A stretch of 27,973 bases of DNA, from positions 1 through 27,973 of the IMG/VR virus record IMGVR_UViG_3300022413_000034; one strand, 5' to 3'. Origin of the DNA: a virus. The notes below the pieces were generated by a model. The model made no database searches. It was not told where the DNA came from and saw only the letters and a list, made by a program, of their open reading frames with translations. Position numbers and translations under genes: made by a program. Shown piece after piece: positions 2,834 through 24,463 of this stretch. Each line of letters starts with the position of its first letter. Position 1 is the first letter of the stretch.

Positions 2834-2961
2834 TTACCCCGGTAGATTTGCCATGCAACGAATGCAAGCACGATTGCGCAGACAATCACAATTGCCACAG
2901 CCGCCCACTCTCCGGCTGATCCCAATCCTATTGGCCCAATGCCCATTGTTTTTGTCTCCAT
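2830..2961 (-). CDS. 43-aa single-pass membrane protein (holin-sized)
   Basis: I chose the start METKTMGIGPIGLG at 2961, overlapping the preceding gene's end by 34 nt. A longer in-frame start at 3042 would overlap by 115 nt, and a later Met at 2943 by 16 nt. The protein is a Gly-rich N terminus plus one strong transmembrane helix (EWAAVAIVIVCAIVLAFVAW) and a short basic tail (QIYRGK), i.e. N-out or N-in with a positively charged end. Its TGA overlaps the next ATG. It is the first of four consecutive small membrane proteins and could be a single-pass holin or pinholin-like protein; the cluster supports this, but no family is recognised. Confidence 0.5.
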   Translation of the reverse strand: METKTMGIGPIGLGSAGEWAAVAIVIVCAIVLAFVAWQIYRGK

Positions 2962-4115
2962 TGTGTTGAGTCCCAACCGACCGCTAGAGCGTCGAAATCG
3001 TCTCCCGCATCGTTGTTCCAATCCATCCAACGACGTGTCCACGCCGGCCGCCCGCCCGAGTTGATCATTTCGATTTTTGCCTTGATCGGCATTCTCCCGC
3101 CATGCTGCTTCACGAGCACGGGAACCGGGTAAGCAACGTTAAGATGGATTCCAGATAGTTTCAGCCCCATGTTGCGCCCGCTTTCGGGGAATTCGCTTTT
3201 GATCCGCCATTCAACAAGGTCGTGGAAATTTTTGCCTTTCCACTTTGCCGCCGCCTCGAGCTTTACCGTGTCAATCGTAACATGCCCAGAGCGCCCAAAT
3301 CGCCCCGCCAAAATCCGGTCGCTCGTGTCAATCTGCGCGTCGCGAATTGAGATAACGACGGCCGTGGAATCAATGTCCGGATCGCCATGCGGATCATCGA
3401 TGGGATTGTTAGGCTCGACAACCACGAACCCGCCGGACCGGTCCGAACGCGAATGGCGTGAAGCTGCGCAATGGAGGAAATGCGCGTTAGTGGTTCCGCT
3501 AGAGATTTTCCAGCCCGCACCACCTCCGAATGTTTGCATCCCTTTCGCTACGGTCTCGAAACCTGGGTCCCAGTCGACGCACGCATGGTCACTCGACTCC
3601 GGAAGCCGAATGCAGAAATCACTGAAACGGGTATGATGTCCGCTGCCGTGCCCCGGCGTCTCAATGTGGAATGCAGGCCCGTTGTTTCCTAGCCGCTCGA
3701 CAACGGCGCCGCCGGAAAATCCAGTGTTGAATCCCATGAAATGGAGCCCGCCTACGTGGCTTTCGATCGTTTGCCCGGGGTAAGTCCACTTATCGTAAAG
3801 CGCTTCTTCGAAAGCTGATTTTTTCTCGGCCAGAAAGAAGCGCCCATCTTGTAAGATGATCGTGCCTTTCGGCGCCAGAAGCCCCTTTGTTCGCGCTTCC
3901 GGCAAGCTGTAGACGGCTTTGAAAAGCCCACGCGGGCCAAACGGCGTCACGGGCGATTCGCCGTTACCGTGCCCGCTGGCCGAGCCCCATCGAAAATATG
4001 GAGAGTATTCGCCTGGAATGTGCGGATTCCCGCCGGATCCTATTTCCCGGCGGATAGCGGCAAACTCTCGATCGAGATCGCGGCCCCAAGAGCGTGCCGT
4101 GAGCTCTGCGCTCAT
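2928..4115 (-). CDS. 395-aa putative virion protein, possibly beta-sheet rich
   Basis: The start ATG overlaps the preceding gene's stop (ATGA). The N-terminal 30 residues are helical and charged. The remainder looks like irregular beta repeats rich in Gly, His and aromatics (GLHFMGFNTGFSGGAVVERL; FHIETPGHGSGHHTRFSDF), the type of sequence seen in beta-helical or sandwich surface proteins, and it contains many His and Trp. No endolysin catalytic motif (no lysozyme E-D-T pattern, no amidase or NlpC triad) is visible, although an endolysin would be expected nearby. It lies between the coiled-coil protein and the membrane cluster. It is most likely a tail-associated or receptor/polysaccharide-interacting protein, but an unrecognised lytic enzyme cannot be excluded. 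Confidence 0.6.
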   Translation of the reverse strand: MSAELTARSWGRDLDREFAAIRREIGSGGNPHIPGEYSPYFRWGSASGHGNGESPVTPFGPRGLFKAVYSLPEARTKGLLAPKGTIILQDGRFFLAEKKSAFEEALYDKWTYPGQTIESHVGGLHFMGFNTGFSGGAVVERLGNNGPAFHIETPGHGSGHHTRFSDFCIRLPESSDHACVDWDPGFETVAKGMQTFGGGAGWKISSGTTNAHFLHCAASRHSRSDRSGGFVVVEPNNPIDDPHGDPDIDSTAVVISIRDAQIDTSDRILAGRFGRSGHVTIDTVKLEAAAKWKGKNFHDLVEWRIKSEFPESGRNMGLKLSGIHLNVAYPVPVLVKQHGGRMPIKAKIEMINSGGRPAWTRRWMDWNNDAGDDFDALAVGWDSTQWRQKQWALGQ

Positions 4116-4384: not shown

Positions 4385-5941
4385 TTATGGTCCAATTGTT
4401 AGTGTTCCAGCTGTTAATCTCCGGGCTCTCAATTCTGCTAGATAGGCCCATGCTCCAATTTCCCATGTTGCATCCCTAATCGCGCCCGAATAATCAGTAG
4501 TAAACGATCCGGATAAATCCAAACCATTCGCGATCGCATCAGAGCCCGCCTGTAGCTTAAATTTGTGCGCTTGATAAGGGGTCCCTGCGTCCACAAACGC
4601 GGGATCGGTAGTCTGAGAATTCGCCTCCAGCCCAGTCAGGGTTGCTGCGGTGTAATTACTGCCAGCAAAAAGCACTATATTTCCCCCAACAGTTCGCCAA
4701 AATAAATTGTAATCATGTGTTGAGACCGTCCCCGCATCCGCATCAAAACATTGATTATCGGACTCAACACCAATATTGTTATTAATCGTGTTTCCAGTCG
4801 TTTCCGAGGAAACAACAATGCATTTGGTCCCCCCGTAAATTGTGTTGTTTTCGACCAGCGCGTCGCGTTGATGGTAATCCATCACTGGTGCGTCATCCCC
4901 ATTAGACGTTATCTGCACACCCACGCCGCTTGGATCAATTATGATATTGTTCCGGACAATCGCACCCGTGAGAGACGATGAATCCACGGTCGCATATTCC
5001 GACGCGCCTCCGTTATTGACCCTGATGCCGCTCTTGGCCCCGCTTCCGTCATTTGTGATGATGAGATTCCGCTCAATTGTCGCGGATGAGTGCGACGTGA
5101 CACCGATCTCCCCTCCCGTAATGGAGTTGCCGCGAACGACACAATCGAACACATAATTTTTTATATCAATCGAGTCTCCCTCGCCGCCCCGCGCGCCCAC
5201 ATCGATAAAAACATTGTTCAGAATTTGGATATTGGACGGACCAATGCCATGCGTGTCAGAAGTCTCCTTCGGCCCATTGACATAGAGCCCCTCTCCATAA
5301 TTGCTTTCGATCGTGCAATTCCTGACCGTAACATTCTGGCACTTTGTTGCATTCGCATTAGCTACCGTATTGGGCTCATATGTAATAAGCACTCCTGGGC
5401 CAGTGGTAGCGCCAACGTTAGATGTCCCGTAGCAGTGTTCCAAAATGCAATTACGCACCGACTTGAGATAGAAACACTGACCATCTACGGCAATCGCCCG
5501 AATCCCCCTAACAGTCACATAATCCCTCCGATCCTCCGTAGCAGAATTTTGCGTAGTTACCGGGTTTGTTGCCGTTACCTGAAATCTGCTCGTGCCCGAA
5601 TAGGACGACCATGAGGGGGTTGAATCATTACTATTATATTTAGCCATGCCGTCAAGCGTGAGCCGATTTGCCCCTGCATCGGTCCGCTCTATTTGAATAT
5701 TGGTCGTGGTGGCTTGATGCACATCAGAACCGGCATCTCGGGCGCTAAAATAAACTGTCACATCATCACTGGCTAGCGACGTATTAATGGTCGTCCACTG
5801 GCCGTCGAGATCCTGCCACGGCTGGGACGCCGTCCCGGATTCAGTGCCAGTATAGTCCGGATCAATATAATACTCGGTCAGAGCATTACAGATCCGAGTA
5901 AGCGCGAGTGCCGCCGCTATTATATAGCCAACTAATTTCAT
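4385..5941 (-). CDS. Signal-peptide-bearing right-handed beta-helix protein
   Basis: I chose the Met eight codons into the longest frame (MKLVGYIIAAALALTRICNA), because this gives a normal Sec signal peptide; the longer start at 5962 adds seven residues. After the leader comes YYIDPDYTGTESGTASQPW, the typical opening of DUF1565/pectate-lyase-like proteins. It continues with repeated parallel beta-helix rungs rich in Asn and Ile/Val (VTVRNCTIESNYGEGLYV; IVRNNIIIDPSG; VENNTIYGG). The family binds or cleaves polysaccharides, either as phage tailspikes or as secreted enzymes. It overlaps the preceding gene by 56 nt. A phage spike with an export signal is unusual, because virion proteins normally assemble in the cytoplasm. 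No catalytic residues can be assigned. Confidence 0.75.
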   Translation of the reverse strand: MKLVGYIIAAALALTRICNALTEYYIDPDYTGTESGTASQPWQDLDGQWTTINTSLASDDVTVYFSARDAGSDVHQATTTNIQIERTDAGANRLTLDGMAKYNSNDSTPSWSSYSGTSRFQVTATNPVTTQNSATEDRRDYVTVRGIRAIAVDGQCFYLKSVRNCILEHCYGTSNVGATTGPGVLITYEPNTVANANATKCQNVTVRNCTIESNYGEGLYVNGPKETSDTHGIGPSNIQILNNVFIDVGARGGEGDSIDIKNYVFDCVVRGNSITGGEIGVTSHSSATIERNLIITNDGSGAKSGIRVNNGGASEYATVDSSSLTGAIVRNNIIIDPSGVGVQITSNGDDAPVMDYHQRDALVENNTIYGGTKCIVVSSETTGNTINNNIGVESDNQCFDADAGTVSTHDYNLFWRTVGGNIVLFAGSNYTAATLTGLEANSQTTDPAFVDAGTPYQAHKFKLQAGSDAIANGLDLSGSFTTDYSGAIRDATWEIGAWAYLAELRARRLTAGTLTIGP

Positions 5942-6635
5942 CGTCTGTAAGCTGATCGTCAAAATACCCGATCCAGTCGAAATCTACGTCTTCGGTATTG
6001 GTGCCGTCCTGCGCACCAATGAACATGTTCCCTGTCCCGTAAGTTCCCCCAGTTCCGATAGTAGTGCTCAACGCAGCACCGTCAAAGCTGTAATAAGTCG
6101 CGTCTTCCGCCCCCCCATCATGAACGATCACCAACAAATACCAGGTATTCGTGGCAGGAGTGGGCGAAGTAATGCCGGTTTGGGCAACATTGGCTCCTTG
6201 TACTCTCCAACTTCCCCCACCGGCACTCTGATAGGTAAACTTCCATTTAGACGCATTGCTACGAGTCAGATCAGAGTTGTTTTGCAAGCTGACTTGCGGG
6301 CGGAATCGGACTGCTACGCTCCAGTCGGCATCGCTATTGCCCCAGCTTGAATCCAACGTGGCCTGCGTATAGGCGTTTCCCGGGGCTCCCGATACGCAAG
6401 TTGCATAATCAACTGCCCCTGTCGTGTAGGTCGGCTCTGTGCCTATCGTGGCGAGATCGAAGGTACTGTGACTATCATCATTGCCCTCACCGCCGACCGT
6501 GTCATCAAAATCATACCAGGCAACGACATTAGTCGACCCCGGGCTTACCGCTCCCCCGCTCGGAACATCGGTGTTCCCGATGATCACAACAAACCCCAAA
6601 CAAACAGGCAGAAACAGCAAAAGGAGTAATTTCAC
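5886..6635 (-). CDS. Signal-peptide-bearing LamG/concanavalin-like protein
   Basis: The longest frame starts at 6707, but a GTG at 6635 overlaps the previous gene's stop exactly (GTGA) and gives a clean signal peptide, KLLLLLFLPVCLGFVVIIG. I take this as the true start (249 aa). The mature part is one LamG-like jelly-roll domain: VVAWYDFDD near the start, SVAVRFRPQV, WYLLVIVHDGG, YYSFDGAAL, and the closing FDWIGYFDDQLTDDEISWLY, which is the characteristic end of LamG domains. Such domains bind glycans or proteins. It sits between two other exported-looking fibre-region proteins and may bind cell surface sugars. Confidence 0.75.
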   Translation of the reverse strand: MKLLLLLFLPVCLGFVVIIGNTDVPSGGAVSPGSTNVVAWYDFDDTVGGEGNDDSHSTFDLATIGTEPTYTTGAVDYATCVSGAPGNAYTQATLDSSWGNSDADWSVAVRFRPQVSLQNNSDLTRSNASKWKFTYQSAGGGSWRVQGANVAQTGITSPTPATNTWYLLVIVHDGGAEDATYYSFDGAALSTTIGTGGTYGTGNMFIGAQDGTNTEDVDFDWIGYFDDQLTDDEISWLYNSGGTRAYSDL

Positions 6636-7786
6636 GGTGTCGCCTCCACCCAGTTTGCGTTGCTCGAATTCCACATCCATCGGAGCGTTCCATTGATATT
6701 TACGCACGCGCCTGTTATCGTGTCGCCCAGCGTGTCGGCTGTATTCTGGATATGCTCATCGGCTGCCATCGCGGTCCCATTTAGGTAAAAAATCTCGCCA
6801 GCGCTTGGCTCTAGATCAATCTGGAATTCATCCCCGACAGTCACCATGATTGCACCGCTCGTAAATGGAGCAGGCAACGTAAACACATGATCCGCTCCGC
6901 TCGATTGATAGTTGCTCAGAATTGTATTGGATGCCTCGGGACTCGTCATCACGCTGGGCGTTGCGGCATCGCCCAGATCGGCGATCGCGATGGCTCTGGG
7001 TAGCAAATAAAAATCCTGGCTGGTATCGTCGCGAAATCGCGGCAAGTTCGGCGCTGCATTTTCCATCCAAATTGCCCCCTCGCCCGCCGCAACGGTCGGC
7101 CCGGAAGCCGCCTCGTTGATCACAAATTCATTTGCGTCGAGGGTAACAACGGAAATGTCGCCATCGGAATTAATGGTGGCTACCTCAACCGCACCAGAAT
7201 CCCGGATACTAAGCTCATTGACCCCGGCGGCATCCCCTAATTCGACAATCAAATCCCCCGTGCTATGCAGATCAATTGCCCCGGTGATCTCATTAGTGTT
7301 AACATCCAGCCCGCCGCCAAGTTGAGGGGAAGCGTCCTCGACGACATTGGAAATCCCGGCTCCCGCATCCGCCTCCAGCACGAATTTGTCCGCAACCGCA
7401 TCATATTTCACGATCTCGTTATCCAGCGCGGGAAGTTGTGCCGTATCGATGGCGATCGCAGTCATGTTCTCACCGCCGTCGTAATATTGCAGCAGCGGCT
7501 GGTGATCCGTGATCGTGGTATCCAGAGCAATCTCACCGGTCGCGTTCGTTGTCGGTGCCGCCCCGTTTGGTAGCGCTAGACTGGTGAGCCCCGTAACATC
7601 CGTAAGCACTGCCAAATCGCTAGAACCATCGAACCCTACCAATCCATTGGCGGTTGCCGGGAGGATGAATGTTTTGAGGTTAGTCCCGTCCATTTGCTGG
7701 ACCCAGACATCGTTATCCGCCGCATATAGCAGCGCCACGAGTCCGAATAGGAGCAGGAAAAACCCCGCCAGTTTTTTGTTTTTCAT
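6632..7786 (-). CDS. Fibre-like protein with N-terminal signal peptide
   Basis: A 384-aa protein opens with a basic n-region and a hydrophobic core (KNKKLAGFFLLLFGLVALLY) followed by AAD, a plausible signal peptidase I site. The rest is low-complexity tail-fibre-like sequence rich in Asp, Ala, Thr and Gly. It includes ISNVVEDASPQLGGGLDVNT, the VVEDxTPQLGGxLD signature found in many phage tail-fibre proteins and also present in the upstream gene. The C-terminal third (VFTLPAPFTSGAIMVTVGD; LRWMWNSSNANWVEAT) resembles a small beta-sandwich fibre tip that closely parallels the C terminus of the upstream gene. An export signal on a fibre-like protein is unexpected. The next gene is GTGA-coupled. 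Confidence 0.7.
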   Translation of the reverse strand: MKNKKLAGFFLLLFGLVALLYAADNDVWVQQMDGTNLKTFILPATANGLVGFDGSSDLAVLTDVTGLTSLALPNGAAPTTNATGEIALDTTITDHQPLLQYYDGGENMTAIAIDTAQLPALDNEIVKYDAVADKFVLEADAGAGISNVVEDASPQLGGGLDVNTNEITGAIDLHSTGDLIVELGDAAGVNELSIRDSGAVEVATINSDGDISVVTLDANEFVINEAASGPTVAAGEGAIWMENAAPNLPRFRDDTSQDFYLLPRAIAIADLGDAATPSVMTSPEASNTILSNYQSSGADHVFTLPAPFTSGAIMVTVGDEFQIDLEPSAGEIFYLNGTAMAADEHIQNTADTLGDTITGACVNINGTLRWMWNSSNANWVEATP

Positions 7787-7796
7787 TATGGAGCTG

Positions 7797-8915
7797 TTAT
7801 TGTTTCACTATCCAGTTAGTTGCGTCATATGCGGTAAAGGTGACATTGACCCCCGCTGCCAGTGTCGTTGATGCGTCCACGCCTCCGCCCAGATCGTCTC
7901 CGGACGCAGGATAAATCTGTAATGTGTTCGCACCGTTGTTGATGACAGTAATCTCACGTCCTGCTGACGCGGCTGGCAGGGTCACCACGTCGCTGGCTAT
8001 CGTGACGGTTGAGACCTCGTTGATGTCGGTCGTCAGCGCCTGCTGGCCCTGCGATTGCGTTCCCGATGCGGTAATCCCGGCAGTTGTTGATCTAGACAAG
8101 ATGCCGTAGATTTCTGTGCCGCCTACGTCCTGAATCCGTAATCTCTCTACCAATCCTCCGCCGCCATCGGGCTGAGTAAAAAACGCAATGGCGGTGCCAT
8201 TGCTCCCCGCCCCCACCGCAACGGTGTCAATGCGAGCCACACTCGCATTGTTGTGCATAAAATTCAGTCGCGCCCCGACTTGATCCTCAGACATCGTCTG
8301 ATTGCGATTCATAATCATCGAGCAAACACCGCTAGCAGTCTCCATATCGAGCCGCCCCTGCGGCGAGCTATGCCCAATTGCAACGTCACCGTCAGATGCA
8401 ATCTCGATCCCCTCGGTGCCGCCGTTGCCGACGAGCTTAAACGTTTGCAGATCATAATCCCCGCCGGCTTGCGGTGTCGTGTCCTCGACCACATTCGCAA
8501 GCCCGCCTCCGCCTCCGCCAGCAATCCACTCGTCATCGGCTGAAACAAACAGTTCGACGAATTCATTCACGCTAACAGTAGCGTCCCCAAGGATGGTGTC
8601 CGCTCCCCCTGCGGTGAGCGTCATATCATCGCTGCCTTTATTATACACCGTGACCCCTTTCCCGATGTCGACAGTTTCGATATCAGGCAATGTGACCGTT
8701 TGCGCGGCGGCGTTGCTCTCGACTACGACGTGCTTCCCGATGTCCGCGTCGTCCACGGTCGCATTCCCCGCTGCCTTCGTGACTACGCTCTTTTGCGAGA
8801 GTTCCAGCGTTGACGGGTCGATCCGGATCGGATCGAGTGCCGAGTTGTGGCCGTCAAAATAGATCCCCGCGGTTGAGGGGTCGGTGATTGTGCTAGTGCT
8901 TCTCTCTTTGGCCAT
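7797..8915 (-). CDS. Tail-fibre-like protein
   Basis: This 372-aa protein starts MAKERSTSTI after a good GGAGG-type site and has no signal peptide. It contains two tip-like beta modules with the same plan: the first around VVVESNAAAQTVTLPDIETV, the second around VTLPAASAGREITVINNGA, ending YDATNWIVKQ. Between them lie a Gly6 run, the fibre signature ANVVEDTTPQAGGDYDLQT, and a segment (IGHSSPQGRLDMETASGVCS) of the type found in long trimeric fibre or collar proteins. It is probably a structural fibre or adhesin. No intramolecular chaperone autocleavage domain is visible. Confidence 0.7.
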   Translation of the reverse strand: MAKERSTSTITDPSTAGIYFDGHNSALDPIRIDPSTLELSQKSVVTKAAGNATVDDADIGKHVVVESNAAAQTVTLPDIETVDIGKGVTVYNKGSDDMTLTAGGADTILGDATVSVNEFVELFVSADDEWIAGGGGGGLANVVEDTTPQAGGDYDLQTFKLVGNGGTEGIEIASDGDVAIGHSSPQGRLDMETASGVCSMIMNRNQTMSEDQVGARLNFMHNNASVARIDTVAVGAGSNGTAIAFFTQPDGGGGLVERLRIQDVGGTEIYGILSRSTTAGITASGTQSQGQQALTTDINEVSTVTIASDVVTLPAASAGREITVINNGANTLQIYPASGDDLGGGVDASTTLAAGVNVTFTAYDATNWIVKQ

Positions 8916-9380: not shown

Positions 9381-10193
9381 TTAAACGACCGGAAGCCGCG
9401 TTGCGTTATAGTATGCTTGAAAAGCTCTTTCGCCGACCAGTAATTGCCCTTCACTATCGTGGTGACTGGACGGAATGACGCCATCCATGGACGCGCTTTC
9501 CGTGTCGATCACAACGCAGTTGTCGAGCTCCGCGGCGATTTCATCGAGCGCGTCGTTGACTTCATCGAATCCGACCCGGTCGCCGTATCCAATCGAGTTG
9601 ATCTTGATAAGCACCAGGAAATCCCAAGTGATCAGCTTCGCGTTCATTCGCGAAACAAGCTCGTAAAAATTCTGCTTGTATCGATCCGCCACGGCTTGTG
9701 TGCTTGCGTCCGTTTCTCCCTGATACCACGAAAACAGATCGAGATGAATCGGGTTTGCGTGCCCTCCGGCATATCCTAACAACTCGCCGAAATCGTCGAG
9801 AACGGCCAGACAATTTGTATCCTCCAGGGACGTTCCCGTAAGCCATCCGGAATCCGGTCCGCCGCTTTCCATCCCCTGACCAGTTCGGCAATATGTCATC
9901 GAGCACCAAGTTTTTTCGTCCTGGTCAAACATCCGCCGGAGGAATTGCGGGCCGGCTCCAAATCTTTCCGTTGTAGGGCATCCTCGAATATCGCCCCACG
10001 CTTGATTGCCTCCAGCATCATGCTTGATCGAATACAACAAATCGTCGTCAGCATCATGCGCCAGGATATCTGTCTCAAATTTTGCATTGCTTCCGCCGCC
10101 CGCGTTGCTCTGCCCGGCATGCAAATGAAATTGAACCGCGCTCCTTGCAAATGGCGGCCCCGCGCCTCCGTTCCAGTCTGAATTGATAGACAT
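9381..10193 (-). CDS. SGNH-hydrolase esterase (SASA/sialate O-acetylesterase-like)
   Basis: All main blocks of the carbohydrate-esterase SGNH family are readable: block I GQSNAGG at residues 27-33 (nucleophile Ser29), WYQGETD at 156-162 (block III), and SHHDSEGQ at 243-250 carrying the likely Asp/His of the triad. The usual order is D-x-x-H, so the His-His-Asp arrangement is slightly atypical. Length (270 aa) is normal. It would remove acetyl or similar ester groups from sugars. Phage tails carry such enzymes to deacetylate capsular or O-antigen polysaccharide, and the fibre neighbourhood supports this. It has no signal peptide. The start is 2 nt after the upstream stop. Confidence 0.8.
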   Translation of the reverse strand: MSINSDWNGGAGPPFARSAVQFHLHAGQSNAGGGSNAKFETDILAHDADDDLLYSIKHDAGGNQAWGDIRGCPTTERFGAGPQFLRRMFDQDEKTWCSMTYCRTGQGMESGGPDSGWLTGTSLEDTNCLAVLDDFGELLGYAGGHANPIHLDLFSWYQGETDASTQAVADRYKQNFYELVSRMNAKLITWDFLVLIKINSIGYGDRVGFDEVNDALDEIAAELDNCVVIDTESASMDGVIPSSHHDSEGQLLVGERAFQAYYNATRLPVV

Positions 10194-11712: not shown

Positions 11713-11730
11713 AAGTAAGGACGTTTGCGC
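11713..11730 (-). repeat. 18-bp repeat, copy 1 (upstream of the fibre cluster)
   Basis: Reads GCGCAAACGTCCTTACTT on the minus strand, between the sigma-like gene's stop and the ATG of the first fibre-cluster gene (11 nt away). It is one of four copies in one orientation. The sequence after it, GAGTTTAGAAG, provides a weak Shine-Dalgarno-like stretch. Confidence 0.8.
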
Positions 11731-11736
11731 CCCGCT

Positions 11737-12360
11737 TTACGCGCCCAATGCGGCGTAAAATTCCCGTGCCGAGTCGATCGTTGTCGCCACCTTTCGGAGC
11801 CGCTCAACAAGGCGAGTTTCCCCCCGCCGGAGTCTCGCTTCCGGGTATCCAGACACCTCTGAAAGCGCCTCTATCGTCACGGGAGCTGCCGCTAATAGCC
11901 GATTGTCGAGCAGTGCCCGGTCCAACCGGCTGAGCCGAATCTTGAGTTTTTCGCCGCTCCCGGGCGCCTCCGGCATCACCGCTCGATCGTGATTCGCCTG
12001 GAATTCCGTTACTGGCGGGATTTTTTGGCGCCGAGGCACACTCACCGCGCGCTGCGCCTGCTGAGCGCAGGATTGCACAACGGCGCCCCGAATCCACGTT
12101 CGGGCATACTGCAAAAATCGACCGCCCCGAGGCCGTGGTCTCCATCGTTCCGCCGCCCGGCGCGCAGCGAGCCACCCGTCCGACATCAGACATTCTGGCC
12201 GGACCGACCACTGCCGGCCGAGGAGGTTGCATTGCCGCACGAGTTCCGGCAATTGCGATTCCGCTAGCGCATTGATCGCGGCTTCATCACCGCGCGCGAT
12301 GCGCTTCGATAGCGCGCGCTCCTGCGCCGGCGTAAACGATGGGCATCCGTCAACCTTCAA
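11737..12360 (-). CDS. Phage-encoded sigma-70-family-like factor
   Basis: This 207-aa protein has sigma domain architecture. Residues 15-100 match region 1.2-2: LSKRIARGDEAAINALAES, LVRQCNLLGRQW, then GWLAARRAAERWRPRPRGG (the region 2.2 core-binding pattern) and RFLQYARTWIRGAVVQS, equivalent to the FxTYAxWWIRQAI promoter-melting/-10 recognition segment. Residues about 145-190 resemble region 4: RLDRALLDNRLL, then IEALSEVSGYPEARLRRGET (helix-turn-helix) and RLVERLRK. Region 3 is short or absent, and the FxTYA Thr is replaced by Gln. It could redirect host RNA polymerase to phage promoters. It lies between the J-like gene and the fibre cluster, an unusual place for a sigma gene. Divergence leaves another DNA-binding role possible. 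Confidence 0.7.
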   Translation of the reverse strand: MKVDGCPSFTPAQERALSKRIARGDEAAINALAESQLPELVRQCNLLGRQWSVRPECLMSDGWLAARRAAERWRPRPRGGRFLQYARTWIRGAVVQSCAQQAQRAVSVPRRQKIPPVTEFQANHDRAVMPEAPGSGEKLKIRLSRLDRALLDNRLLAAAPVTIEALSEVSGYPEARLRRGETRLVERLRKVATTIDSAREFYAALGA

Positions 12361-18208: not shown

Positions 18209-18226
18209 AAGTTAGGACGTTTGCGC
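18209..18226 (-). repeat. 18-bp repeat, copy 2 (upstream of the tape measure)
   Basis: Reads GCGCAAACGTCCTAACTT, 6 nt before the tape-measure ATG. The TAA stop of the frameshifted tail chaperone is embedded in it (18212-18214). The following bases AAGGCG then ATGGCGA are nearly the same as at copy 4. Confidence 0.85.
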
Positions 18227-19258: not shown

Positions 19259-19681
19259 TTAGATTGTGATGTTTACGCCGTAGCTGGCCTGAAATGCGAA
19301 GCTCCAGCCGCCTTGAGTGTTTTCGGCTAATTCGTTTCTCAACGGTTGACCGCCCACAAAATGCAGATTGGTGTCGGCAAAATCCGTGAGTCTCGCGGCC
19401 TCGATCGCCTTTTCCGCGGCCGCGCCGGCTTCGAGCAGCACCTTTTCCGCGTCGACCGTATCCTCGGCCCAGATGTCCACCCGGAAAATCGGTTCGCGCG
19501 TCCGGCAATCACGTGACCCCAGGTCCGAATCGATCGACTCAATATAAATGGATGCCGCCGGGTAGGTGTCGACGGCATCCATTTTCCCGACGGATACGAC
19601 CGTGATCCCCATTGCAGCGATCTCGGCCACCGTAGGCAGCAAAACTTTCAGCTTGTCGCGTATGTCGAGAGCTTTGATCAT
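19259..19681 (-). CDS. Tail terminator (gpU/gpZ-like)
   Basis: The 140-aa protein has an N-terminal helix (LDIRDKLKVLLPTVAEI), the strand YPAASIYIESIDSDLGS and FRVDIWAEDTVDAEKVLLEA, which is the alpha/beta layout of lambda gpU-type tail terminators, and ends with GWSFAFQASYGVNITI. It closes the tail tube at the head end and joins to the head completion protein. ATGA overlap with the preceding joining gene indicates coupled synthesis. Confidence 0.7.
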   Translation of the reverse strand: MIKALDIRDKLKVLLPTVAEIAAMGITVVSVGKMDAVDTYPAASIYIESIDSDLGSRDCRTREPIFRVDIWAEDTVDAEKVLLEAGAAAEKAIEAARLTDFADTNLHFVGGQPLRNELAENTQGGWSFAFQASYGVNITI

Positions 19682-20323: not shown

Positions 20324-22348
20324 TTACGTGATGTCATCCATCTGCGCCCAGTTGGCGGCCTGCGTGACGTCGCCGTCGACATCGACAAACACCCGGAGAA
20401 CAACGCTTCCCGTGTCCGCGTGCGTTGCGGTGTCTCGGGAAAATTCCACGCCGCCCCAGAATCCAAACAAGTAAAATGCCGGGATTCCGTACACATAGGC
20501 GCTTTTATCGTTGCCGACTTGCAGGTCATTCGGAACGTTGTTCGTGACCTCGAAAGTCCCGATATCGGTATCAACGGCGTTGCGCCCTGGGACGCGACTT
20601 CCTAGCATCACGCTATCGGTTGACGCTACTTTCGCCGTGGAGAGCAACAGCCGCTTGCCGCGGGAATTCGTGAATCCAACCGCGCGCCCGGTGTCTGCGT
20701 TCGCATCCCCTAGCGCTTGCTCCAGATCGAGCAATAGCGCGAGAGTCGGCGCGGTCCCGGCGACGTCGCCGACTCCACTTGCGCCGATGATTCCTTGCGG
20801 ATCGGTAGTTCCCCCGCCGTTGAACGCCTTCTTTTCCAGTTCGATTCCAATGCCCGTTCGCAGGGAATTCGAAAGCAGCGTATCAATGTTAGGCAACGTG
20901 ATCTTGCCGGCCGTCCGCGTAAACGGAATCTGAGCACCCATCGTTTTGAACGCCAGCGTGAACTGGTCGAGAGTATAGTCGCCTTCGGTCGGTTCCGTGG
21001 CTTCTCCAACCCAGTAAAACGCGGGATTCGTCAGCTCTCGCGGAATCGTCACGGCTGATCCCACGAGCCCGCCTAGCATCGATGCCATGCCGAGAAAGGG
21101 TGTCGTCTCCCGAAGCGAATCGATAAACATCTCCGGATGATACTCAGGCGGATCGATGTTTGCTGCATCGGCGTTTCCGGCGCCTCCCGTCAGAGAGAAT
21201 ACTGCGCGTTCGCGGTGTTGACTCGCCGCGCGCGATCCCCTGACAAATGCTTCCGGCATGATCGCGATCCGGTCCGAGTCGCCGCTTCCAGATCGTTCCT
21301 TGATCGCCTTGGAAACCTCAAATTCAAACGGCGCGTCCTTTTCACACCTGCCGTTTACGATCGCCTCGACCATCCGCGAAAGACTGTAGGTTTTGACCTC
21401 GGTTGGCGTCATTCCGATTTCTTGACCGCTCGGGCCGCCGGCGCGCGTTTTGTGCACCTTTTCCATGACCGCTCGCCGGAAATCCGCTTCGGACGTTCCG
21501 TCTTCAATCGCTCGTTGGGCGTCGTCCGGACAATCCCATTCTTTCCCGATCCTGTTGATCTCGGCCATTCGGGCGCGGTCTTTTGCCACTCCGTCCTGGA
21601 CCGCATCGGCCCGCTGTTTGTCTGCCTCGTCCAACGTGATCGTGGCTGTAGGCGTTGCTGTTGGTTCTTTTGCCATTTCGATTTCTGGTTCGTTTTTGTC
21701 GGCGTCTTCAGTTTCGCCTGATCTGATGGAAGTAAGGACGTTTGCGCAAAGGCTCTCAATGTAGCGCGTCCGCGCCTCGGTCTCCTCCTCGGACCTCCCG
21801 AGCCCGGTCGAATCATCGGCGGCCACCGGCGCGAAAGATATCTCAATCGGCGACCAGTCCGTCACCCTGGAGACGATACGGTTGCCGCCCTCGCCGGTTT
21901 CCTGCTCCTCGAGTCGCTCGTTGTGGATCTTGTAGCCGACGCTTGTATTGCGGACGATCCCGTCTTCGATGTCGCTTAAAAGCCGCGTCTCATTGCGGGA
22001 GATTTGGATTTCCGCGTGCCCGCGGCCGTCTCTCACTTCGACGCCCGTGATCCGCCCGACTTGCCGGGACCGGTCGTGATTCCAGAGCACCGGCGAATTG
22101 CCAGACTCGAATCGCTTCAGTCGCACCTCGCCGGCACCGTGCCCGAGAATTTCAAAAAACTGCGGAAAGACCTCGATTTCCCGATCCGACGAAAACGACA
22201 CCCGGAAGCGTGGCAACTCGGCGCCTTCGGCCTCACCGTCCTGCCGGATTTTCTCAATCGTCCCCGGAAAGGATCGCGTCAGCGTCGTCTTCGGCCTCGC
22301 CGGTTTCGCCGGTTTCTTCTTCGGTGCTTTCATTTTCATTGCTTGCAT
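20324..22348 (-). CDS. HK97-type prohead protease fused to major capsid protein
   Basis: Residues 20-185 are a U35/S78-type HK97 prohead protease: FESGNSPVLWNHDRSRQVG carries the likely catalytic His91, IVRNTSVGYKI the Ser136, and WSPIEISFAPV the Glu169. A linker of about 40 residues follows, then from Met225 a helical delta-like segment and the HK97 capsid fold (TPFLGMASMLGGLVGSAVTI; AFYWVGEATEPTEG; FKTMGAQIPFTRTAG; NGGGTTDPQGIIGASGV). Such fusions are known in other phages; the protease would cut itself free during maturation. The 5-prime end overlaps the portal gene by 95 nt. Copy 3 of the 18-bp repeat lies in the linker (residues 200-207, LCANVLTS), and internal initiation at Met225 could make extra capsid protein. 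Confidence 0.85.
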   Translation of the reverse strand: MQAMKMKAPKKKPAKPARPKTTLTRSFPGTIEKIRQDGEAEGAELPRFRVSFSSDREIEVFPQFFEILGHGAGEVRLKRFESGNSPVLWNHDRSRQVGRITGVEVRDGRGHAEIQISRNETRLLSDIEDGIVRNTSVGYKIHNERLEEQETGEGGNRIVSRVTDWSPIEISFAPVAADDSTGLGRSEEETEARTRYIESLCANVLTSIRSGETEDADKNEPEIEMAKEPTATPTATITLDEADKQRADAVQDGVAKDRARMAEINRIGKEWDCPDDAQRAIEDGTSEADFRRAVMEKVHKTRAGGPSGQEIGMTPTEVKTYSLSRMVEAIVNGRCEKDAPFEFEVSKAIKERSGSGDSDRIAIMPEAFVRGSRAASQHRERAVFSLTGGAGNADAANIDPPEYHPEMFIDSLRETTPFLGMASMLGGLVGSAVTIPRELTNPAFYWVGEATEPTEGDYTLDQFTLAFKTMGAQIPFTRTAGKITLPNIDTLLSNSLRTGIGIELEKKAFNGGGTTDPQGIIGASGVGDVAGTAPTLALLLDLEQALGDANADTGRAVGFTNSRGKRLLLSTAKVASTDSVMLGSRVPGRNAVDTDIGTFEVTNNVPNDLQVGNDKSAYVYGIPAFYLFGFWGGVEFSRDTATHADTGSVVLRVFVDVDGDVTQAANWAQMDDIT
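21730..21747 (-). repeat. 18-bp repeat, copy 3 (inside the protease-capsid fusion)
   Basis: Reads GCGCAAACGTCCTTACTT, identical to copy 1, but lies inside coding sequence, 53 nt upstream of an internal ATG (Met225) that starts the capsid part. It is preceded by CCTTT, so that TTTGCGCAAA forms a perfect palindrome here only. Confidence 0.8.
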
Positions 22349-24445: not shown

Positions 24446-24463
24446 AAGTTAGGACGTTTGCGC
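24446..24463 (-). repeat. 18-bp repeat, copy 4 (upstream of the connector)
   Basis: Reads GCGCAAACGTCCTAACTT, identical to copy 2, 6 nt before ATG at 24439. The flank AGGGCG then ATGGCGA is almost identical to that at copy 2. Phased GTAACT repeats lie directly upstream (24466-24503). Confidence 0.85.

Follow-up and report, generated by a model that had tools for sequence, protein, structure and literature searches.

The window, by which we mean the whole stretch of DNA analyzed in the present study, comprises 27,973 bases and is a virus record from IMG/VR. Its likely genes lie almost all on the minus strand and follow the late order of a tailed phage: a gpA terminase, a lambda-type portal, an S78-protease/capsid fusion, tail genes, a tape measure, a DUF6950-like gene, and a gpJ-like tip. 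The tip is followed by a sigma-like ORF, a 501-aa gene, a SASA esterase, a small gene, and fibre A. Fibre B, a LamG-like gene, and a beta-helix gene come next (Table 1); behind them lie a 395-aa gene, which has no leader, and small membrane genes. The 395-aa gene possibly encodes a tailspike, which is a guess from its sequence. A convincing lipobox spanin partner was not found in the late end of the window. Among cultured phages, the CRP-821 group of Roseobacter phages has the nearest terminase (42%). Searches with the terminase (best match 45%), the LamG-like protein, and the beta-helix protein found no near relatives of the window.

Table 1. Features of the three-gene region and its neighbours in the window (a slash marks a predicted cleavage position)
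Feature	Position	Strand	Description
Fibre A	7797..8915	-	Leaderless relative of fibre B next door; phrog_4209 tail fibre, 1.8e-6
Fibre B gene	6632..7786	-	384 aa, fibre-like, ATG 7786; ORF
Fibre B Sec leader, 22 codons	7721..7786	-	Predicted cut LYA/AD; h-region 3.07, n-charge +3, cleavage score 2.5
Shine-Dalgarno GGAGG	6643..6647	-	7 nt upstream of LamG-like GTG 6635
LamG-like gene	5886..6635	-	249 aa; GTG start overlaps fibre B stop (GTGA)
LamG-like hydrophobic leader, 20 codons	6576..6635	-	h-region 3.26, weak cleavage site
Overlap, LamG-like 3' end/beta-helix 5' end	5886..5941	-	56 nt, out of frame; carries beta-helix leader
Right-handed beta-helix gene	4385..5941	-	518 aa, ATG 5941; PF13229, 6e-12
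Beta-helix Sec leader, 20 codons	5882..5941	-	Predicted cut CNA/LT; h-region 2.98, cleavage score 2.1
395-aa late gene, downstream of beta-helix gene	2928..4115	-	Leaderless; no Pfam or PHROG match

Several other features of the late region were noted. The SASA carbohydrate esterase (9381-10193, minus strand; PF03629, 7e-13) is leaderless and lies within the fibre region. The sigma-like ORF, which lies after the tail tip and before the fibre genes (11737-12360, minus strand), resembles sigma-70 region 2 just under the cut-off (PF04542, 2e-4). Four exact coding-strand copies of AAACGTCCTNACTT occur on the minus strand (24446-24459, 21730-21743, 18209-18222, and 11713-11726); three are directly upstream of genes (24439, 18202, and 11701) and one is within the capsid gene. 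These copies are possibly a late regulatory element.

An earlier note on this DNA described three consecutive genes with convincing Sec leaders. The genes are indeed consecutive, at 4385-7786 on the minus strand, and in each leader a lysine precedes a hydrophobic stretch, with a positive n-region and an uncharged h-region in 3/3 genes. The description of the leaders holds for fibre B, which begins MKNKKLAGFFLLLFGLVALLYA/ADNDVW, and for the beta-helix protein, which begins MKLVGYIIAAALALTRICNA/LTEYY (the slash is the predicted cut), but not fully for the LamG-like protein, the leader of which, VKLLLLLFLPVCLGFVVIIG, is hydrophobic but has a weak c-region. This leader may be a signal peptide or else a signal anchor, and the LamG-like protein is possibly anchored because the hydrophobic leader is long and its cleavage site is poor. 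The GTGA coupling of the LamG-like start to the fibre B stop was confirmed, and the GGAGG in front of it, a strong ribosome-binding site, disfavours a true start farther downstream. Shine-Dalgarno sequences are absent at the fibre B and beta-helix starts.

The gene labels fared differently. The beta-helix label is secured by PF13229 (45.9 bits; cut-off, 25.9); this protein also weakly matches choice-of-anchor Q, a bacterial-protein domain, below the cut-off (E 0.005). Searches of Pfam, PHROGs, NCBIfam, and PDB sequences gave no match for the LamG fold proposed earlier, and single-sequence AlphaFold modelling of the LamG-like protein and of the beta-helix protein gave unusable models (pLDDT 30-31). 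Fibre B has no Pfam, PHROG, or NCBIfam match. It and fibre A have a repeat in common (30% match, 9.3e-6), and its GEIALDT domain has relatives in other phage contigs.

Leaders were called using a rule-based scorer written for this analysis (n-charge, an 8-residue h-region, and the cleavage site). The scorer recovered 10/10 E. coli signal peptides and lambda Lom, Bor, and Rz1. All three window leaders passed at an h-region score of at least 2.4 and a cleavage score of at least 1.2, and 2/3 at a cleavage score of at least 2.0. At these settings, 0/4,200 internal 60-mers from the window and related proteins passed (0-2/4,200 across thresholds). The only other window genes to score were a weak call at 19681 and a TM gene at 2266. 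The premise that virion proteins normally lack leaders was supported: virion proteins of lambda, HK97, T7, P22, Mu, and CRP-821 gave two calls, both weak, among 111, and a leader was present in 1/70 IMG/VR fibres with an intact start and the NVVEDTTPQLGG repeat common to fibres A and B. ORFs of at least 150 aa carried leaders in 2/552 cases near related terminases and in 12/422 around NVVED fibres, with three of the latter in one locus (L015). The virion-protein, fibre, terminase-neighbourhood, and internal 60-mer controls reject a chance origin of the leaders.

The beta-helix leader lies within the overlap with the LamG-like gene. We recoded the LamG-like C-terminus synonymously 20,000 times with the codon usage of the window; a strict leader arose in the beta-helix frame in 2.2% of recodings, and one as strong as that observed in 0.19%. 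An origin as a by-product of the LamG-like frame is unlikely on these figures (0.2-2.2% of recodings), which come from one gene pair and have limited power; the leader is probably no by-product because so few recodings match its strength.

The phenomenon extends beyond the window. Six further phage records contain leader-bearing fibre-type genes, with runs that reach four or five genes in L193 and vir555, and 17/18 related cassette genes had full n-, h-, and c-region organization at the standard threshold. The GEIALDT...QYYDG domain of fibre B also occurs in three phage contigs (L003, L004, and L007), in ORFs with strong leaders, and in two MAG contigs; at the MAG locus L008, the GEIALDT ORF has a hydrophobic start with no clear cut site. 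Late genes with leaders number three in L003, two in L007, and three in L015. In L193, exactly 4/42 ORFs bear leaders; they are contiguous, directly follow the tail tip (p 3.5e-4 under random placement), and are the only large genes past it. In vir555 (L183, BK063671.1), a short gene with a T7-type tail-fibre N-terminal domain is followed by five consecutive leader-bearing genes, one with a weak cut site, including a fibre, a Cys-containing 241-aa gene, a possible beta-helix, and an FN3-like gene. The order of gene kinds is that of the window. Methanomicrobiales is the recorded host of vir555, although the vir555 structural genes bear T7-like family annotations; this host assignment looks doubtful.

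Two other loci deserve mention. In a Nealsonbacteria MAG contig (L009 5733-8120), the GEIALDT fibre domain is part of a collagen-like protein with a membrane segment, and no phage genes were evident in the stretch read; an exchange between phage fibres and cell-surface proteins is possible from this arrangement. By eye, a minor-head-like protein in L003 (10531-12486) appears to be interrupted by an intein-like insert, and the opposite strand carries an ORF that looks HNH-type.

Leaders have also been added to otherwise leaderless families. A 120-aa family (ITAQNxFSD...) has no leader at the 37 other related viral loci that were detected, many of them near-duplicates, but is leader-bearing in L003 (the same sequence in L184-L186), L193, and a diverged vir555 relative; the mature proteins are predicted to start at the position at which the leaderless proteins begin. 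Furthermore, the leader-bearing L193:9217-10554 is a PHROG_5302 tail protein by profile (8e-84). Its residue 38 aligns with profile position 153, and the leader replaces a longer N-terminal region of the profile; this replacement may have cost the protein its virion attachment. Seven PHROG_5302 homologues (MetMV, S-EIVl, cr50, cr7, crAssphage LMMB, LoVEphage, and Perkons) are leaderless, and several of them adjoin reverse transcriptases. The L193 protein is an exception in a family that includes targets of diversity-generating retroelements (DGRs).

A warning comes from the L004 phage (L233 4051-7961, contig IMGVR_UViG_3300037247_000219), in which three nearby genes have Tat-like RRxFLK/RRQVLK leaders: two small genes with near-identical leaders and unrelated bodies, and the large terminase (phrog_9, 6e-157). 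Such leaders occurred in 0/1,326 control ORFs when a hydrophobic stretch was also required after the motif. Terminase acts in the cytoplasm, so that either its translation begins farther downstream (TTG 6231) or leader-like starts can exist without export. Since a cytoplasmic enzyme has a Tat-like leader, a leader alone does not prove export, and our confidence in export is therefore lower.

We consider the products of the three window genes to be probably exported. Blocks of leaders recur elsewhere, and leaders are prepended to otherwise leaderless phage families, which makes export the most economical explanation. From the leaders, which can be read directly, we infer that the host Sec system would carry the three late-gene products across the inner membrane and that signal peptidase would cleave fibre B and the beta-helix protein, whereas the LamG-like protein would be cleaved or remain anchored. 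The cleaved proteins are expected to be soluble outside the cytoplasm because the three window proteins have no second strongly hydrophobic segment past the leader and no recognized C-terminal anchor; if the host has two membranes, they would stay in the periplasm until lysis. With lower confidence, we favour the view that the exported proteins are glycan binders separate from the cytoplasm-built virion, which may, for example, mask or trim surface glycans around lysis. A role outside the virion is the preferred reading for the window: leaderless fibre candidates are left to serve the virion, and the L193 leader stands where the profile has a longer N-terminal region. The full reading, in which three late genes encode Sec-exported, non-virion glycan-binding proteins that act outside the cytoplasm, is tentative, with a chance just short of even. 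In its favour are three consecutive leaders over a low background, a beta-helix leader that the overlapping frame does not explain, recurrence in six phage records with runs in L193 and vir555, and leaders prepended to the 120-aa family and PHROG_5302; lambda Lom is also an exported protein encoded among tail genes. However, the poor LamG-like cleavage site, the two starts without a Shine-Dalgarno sequence, the location of the genes in a structural late operon, as for virion genes, and the L004 terminase leader stand against it, and no close relatives were found with which to compare the conservation of the window leaders.

The location of the genes in structural modules and their fibre-type repeats would also suit fibres that are exported, processed, and folded outside the cytoplasm and joined to virions at lysis. 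Large genes past the tail tip in L193 are leader-bearing ones only, the vir555 run follows a short T7-type tail-fibre N-terminal gene, and the mature start in the 120-aa family is the start of its leaderless homologues. Particles can acquire P22 tailspikes and T4 tail fibres in vitro; the completion of virions outside cells is thus chemically possible. However, the mature window proteins showed no identifiable attachment domain, and fibres freed into the open medium would dilute before reaching virions. Moreover, leader-bearing fibres show no general cysteine enrichment, by which a disulfide adaptation was rejected. We regard maturation in the periplasm as rather unlikely. It is unlikely that a complete receptor-binding or fibre cassette has been redirected through Sec in several unrelated lineages of tailed phages by the addition of leaders to ordinary structural genes, with fibres maturing outside the cytoplasm and the virion completed only at lysis.

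The L004 terminase and the weak LamG-like cleavage site may instead indicate that export does not occur and that the hydrophobic N-termini are either artefacts of the chosen start sites or decayed leaders, or serve another role, for example membrane contact or virion attachment; two starts without a Shine-Dalgarno sequence and a leader that overlaps another gene are consistent with this. We consider it improbable, given the full n-, h-, and c-regions of fibre B, the beta-helix protein, and the related cassette genes, the contiguous clustering of leaders, and the very low background in controls. Carriage of cell-derived surface proteins as moron-type genes expressed in the lysogen, like lambda Lom, is very improbable. 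The lom gene has a clear leader and lies between J and the side-tail-fibre genes, and the weak choice-of-anchor Q match of the beta-helix protein also points in this direction. However, the fibre B repeat is shared with the neighbouring phage fibre A, and promoter evidence does not go past simple consensus matches. The earlier note had also proposed a role in lysogeny; no tyrosine integrase (PF00589) was found in the window record, which may be a fragment, or in the six additional records, several of them fragments, of phages whose fibre genes bear leaders. A role in lysogeny is thus unsupported, and lysogenic conversion is less likely because none was found in the seven records.

Since the fibres of phages are normally assembled within the cell, export tags on clustered fibre genes, which a few unrelated environmental phages also have, are unusual. 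Leader-bearing fibre blocks would mean either exported phage effectors or the completion of virions outside the cytoplasm. The literature searched, which mostly excluded subscription papers, contained no description of a leader-bearing fibre cassette. Missing signal peptides have been used to support the assignment of lectin-type variable proteins to phage parts rather than to the cell surface (PMC6199706); recurrent phages with blocks of leader-bearing fibre-type genes break this rule of thumb.

Several known systems resemble the window in part. Filamentous phage coat proteins, such as pIII, are virion proteins with Sec leaders; however, filamentous phages are unrelated to tailed phages, and are assembled at the membrane and extruded without lysis. 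The PHROG_5302/crAss tail-collar fibre family has a leader-bearing member in L193 among leaderless homologues, and the window genes are not members. DGR target proteins on bacterial surfaces are lectin-type proteins with signal peptides that are displayed on cells (PMC6199706, PMC8144416), whereas genes of the window type lie in phage late modules, and no reverse transcriptase was found in the phage records with leader-bearing fibres. Signal-arrest-release endolysins, such as JG068 gp47, have an N-terminal signal sequence for leaving the cytoplasm (PMC3765740). They are late phage proteins, similar to those of the window, but are lysis enzymes with an uncleaved signal rather than fibres. Lambda Lom and Bor, for which we claim no homology, are also phage-encoded with export leaders, and lom lies among tail genes; however, they are single outer-membrane-type genes, whereas the window carries a run of fibre and beta-helix genes.
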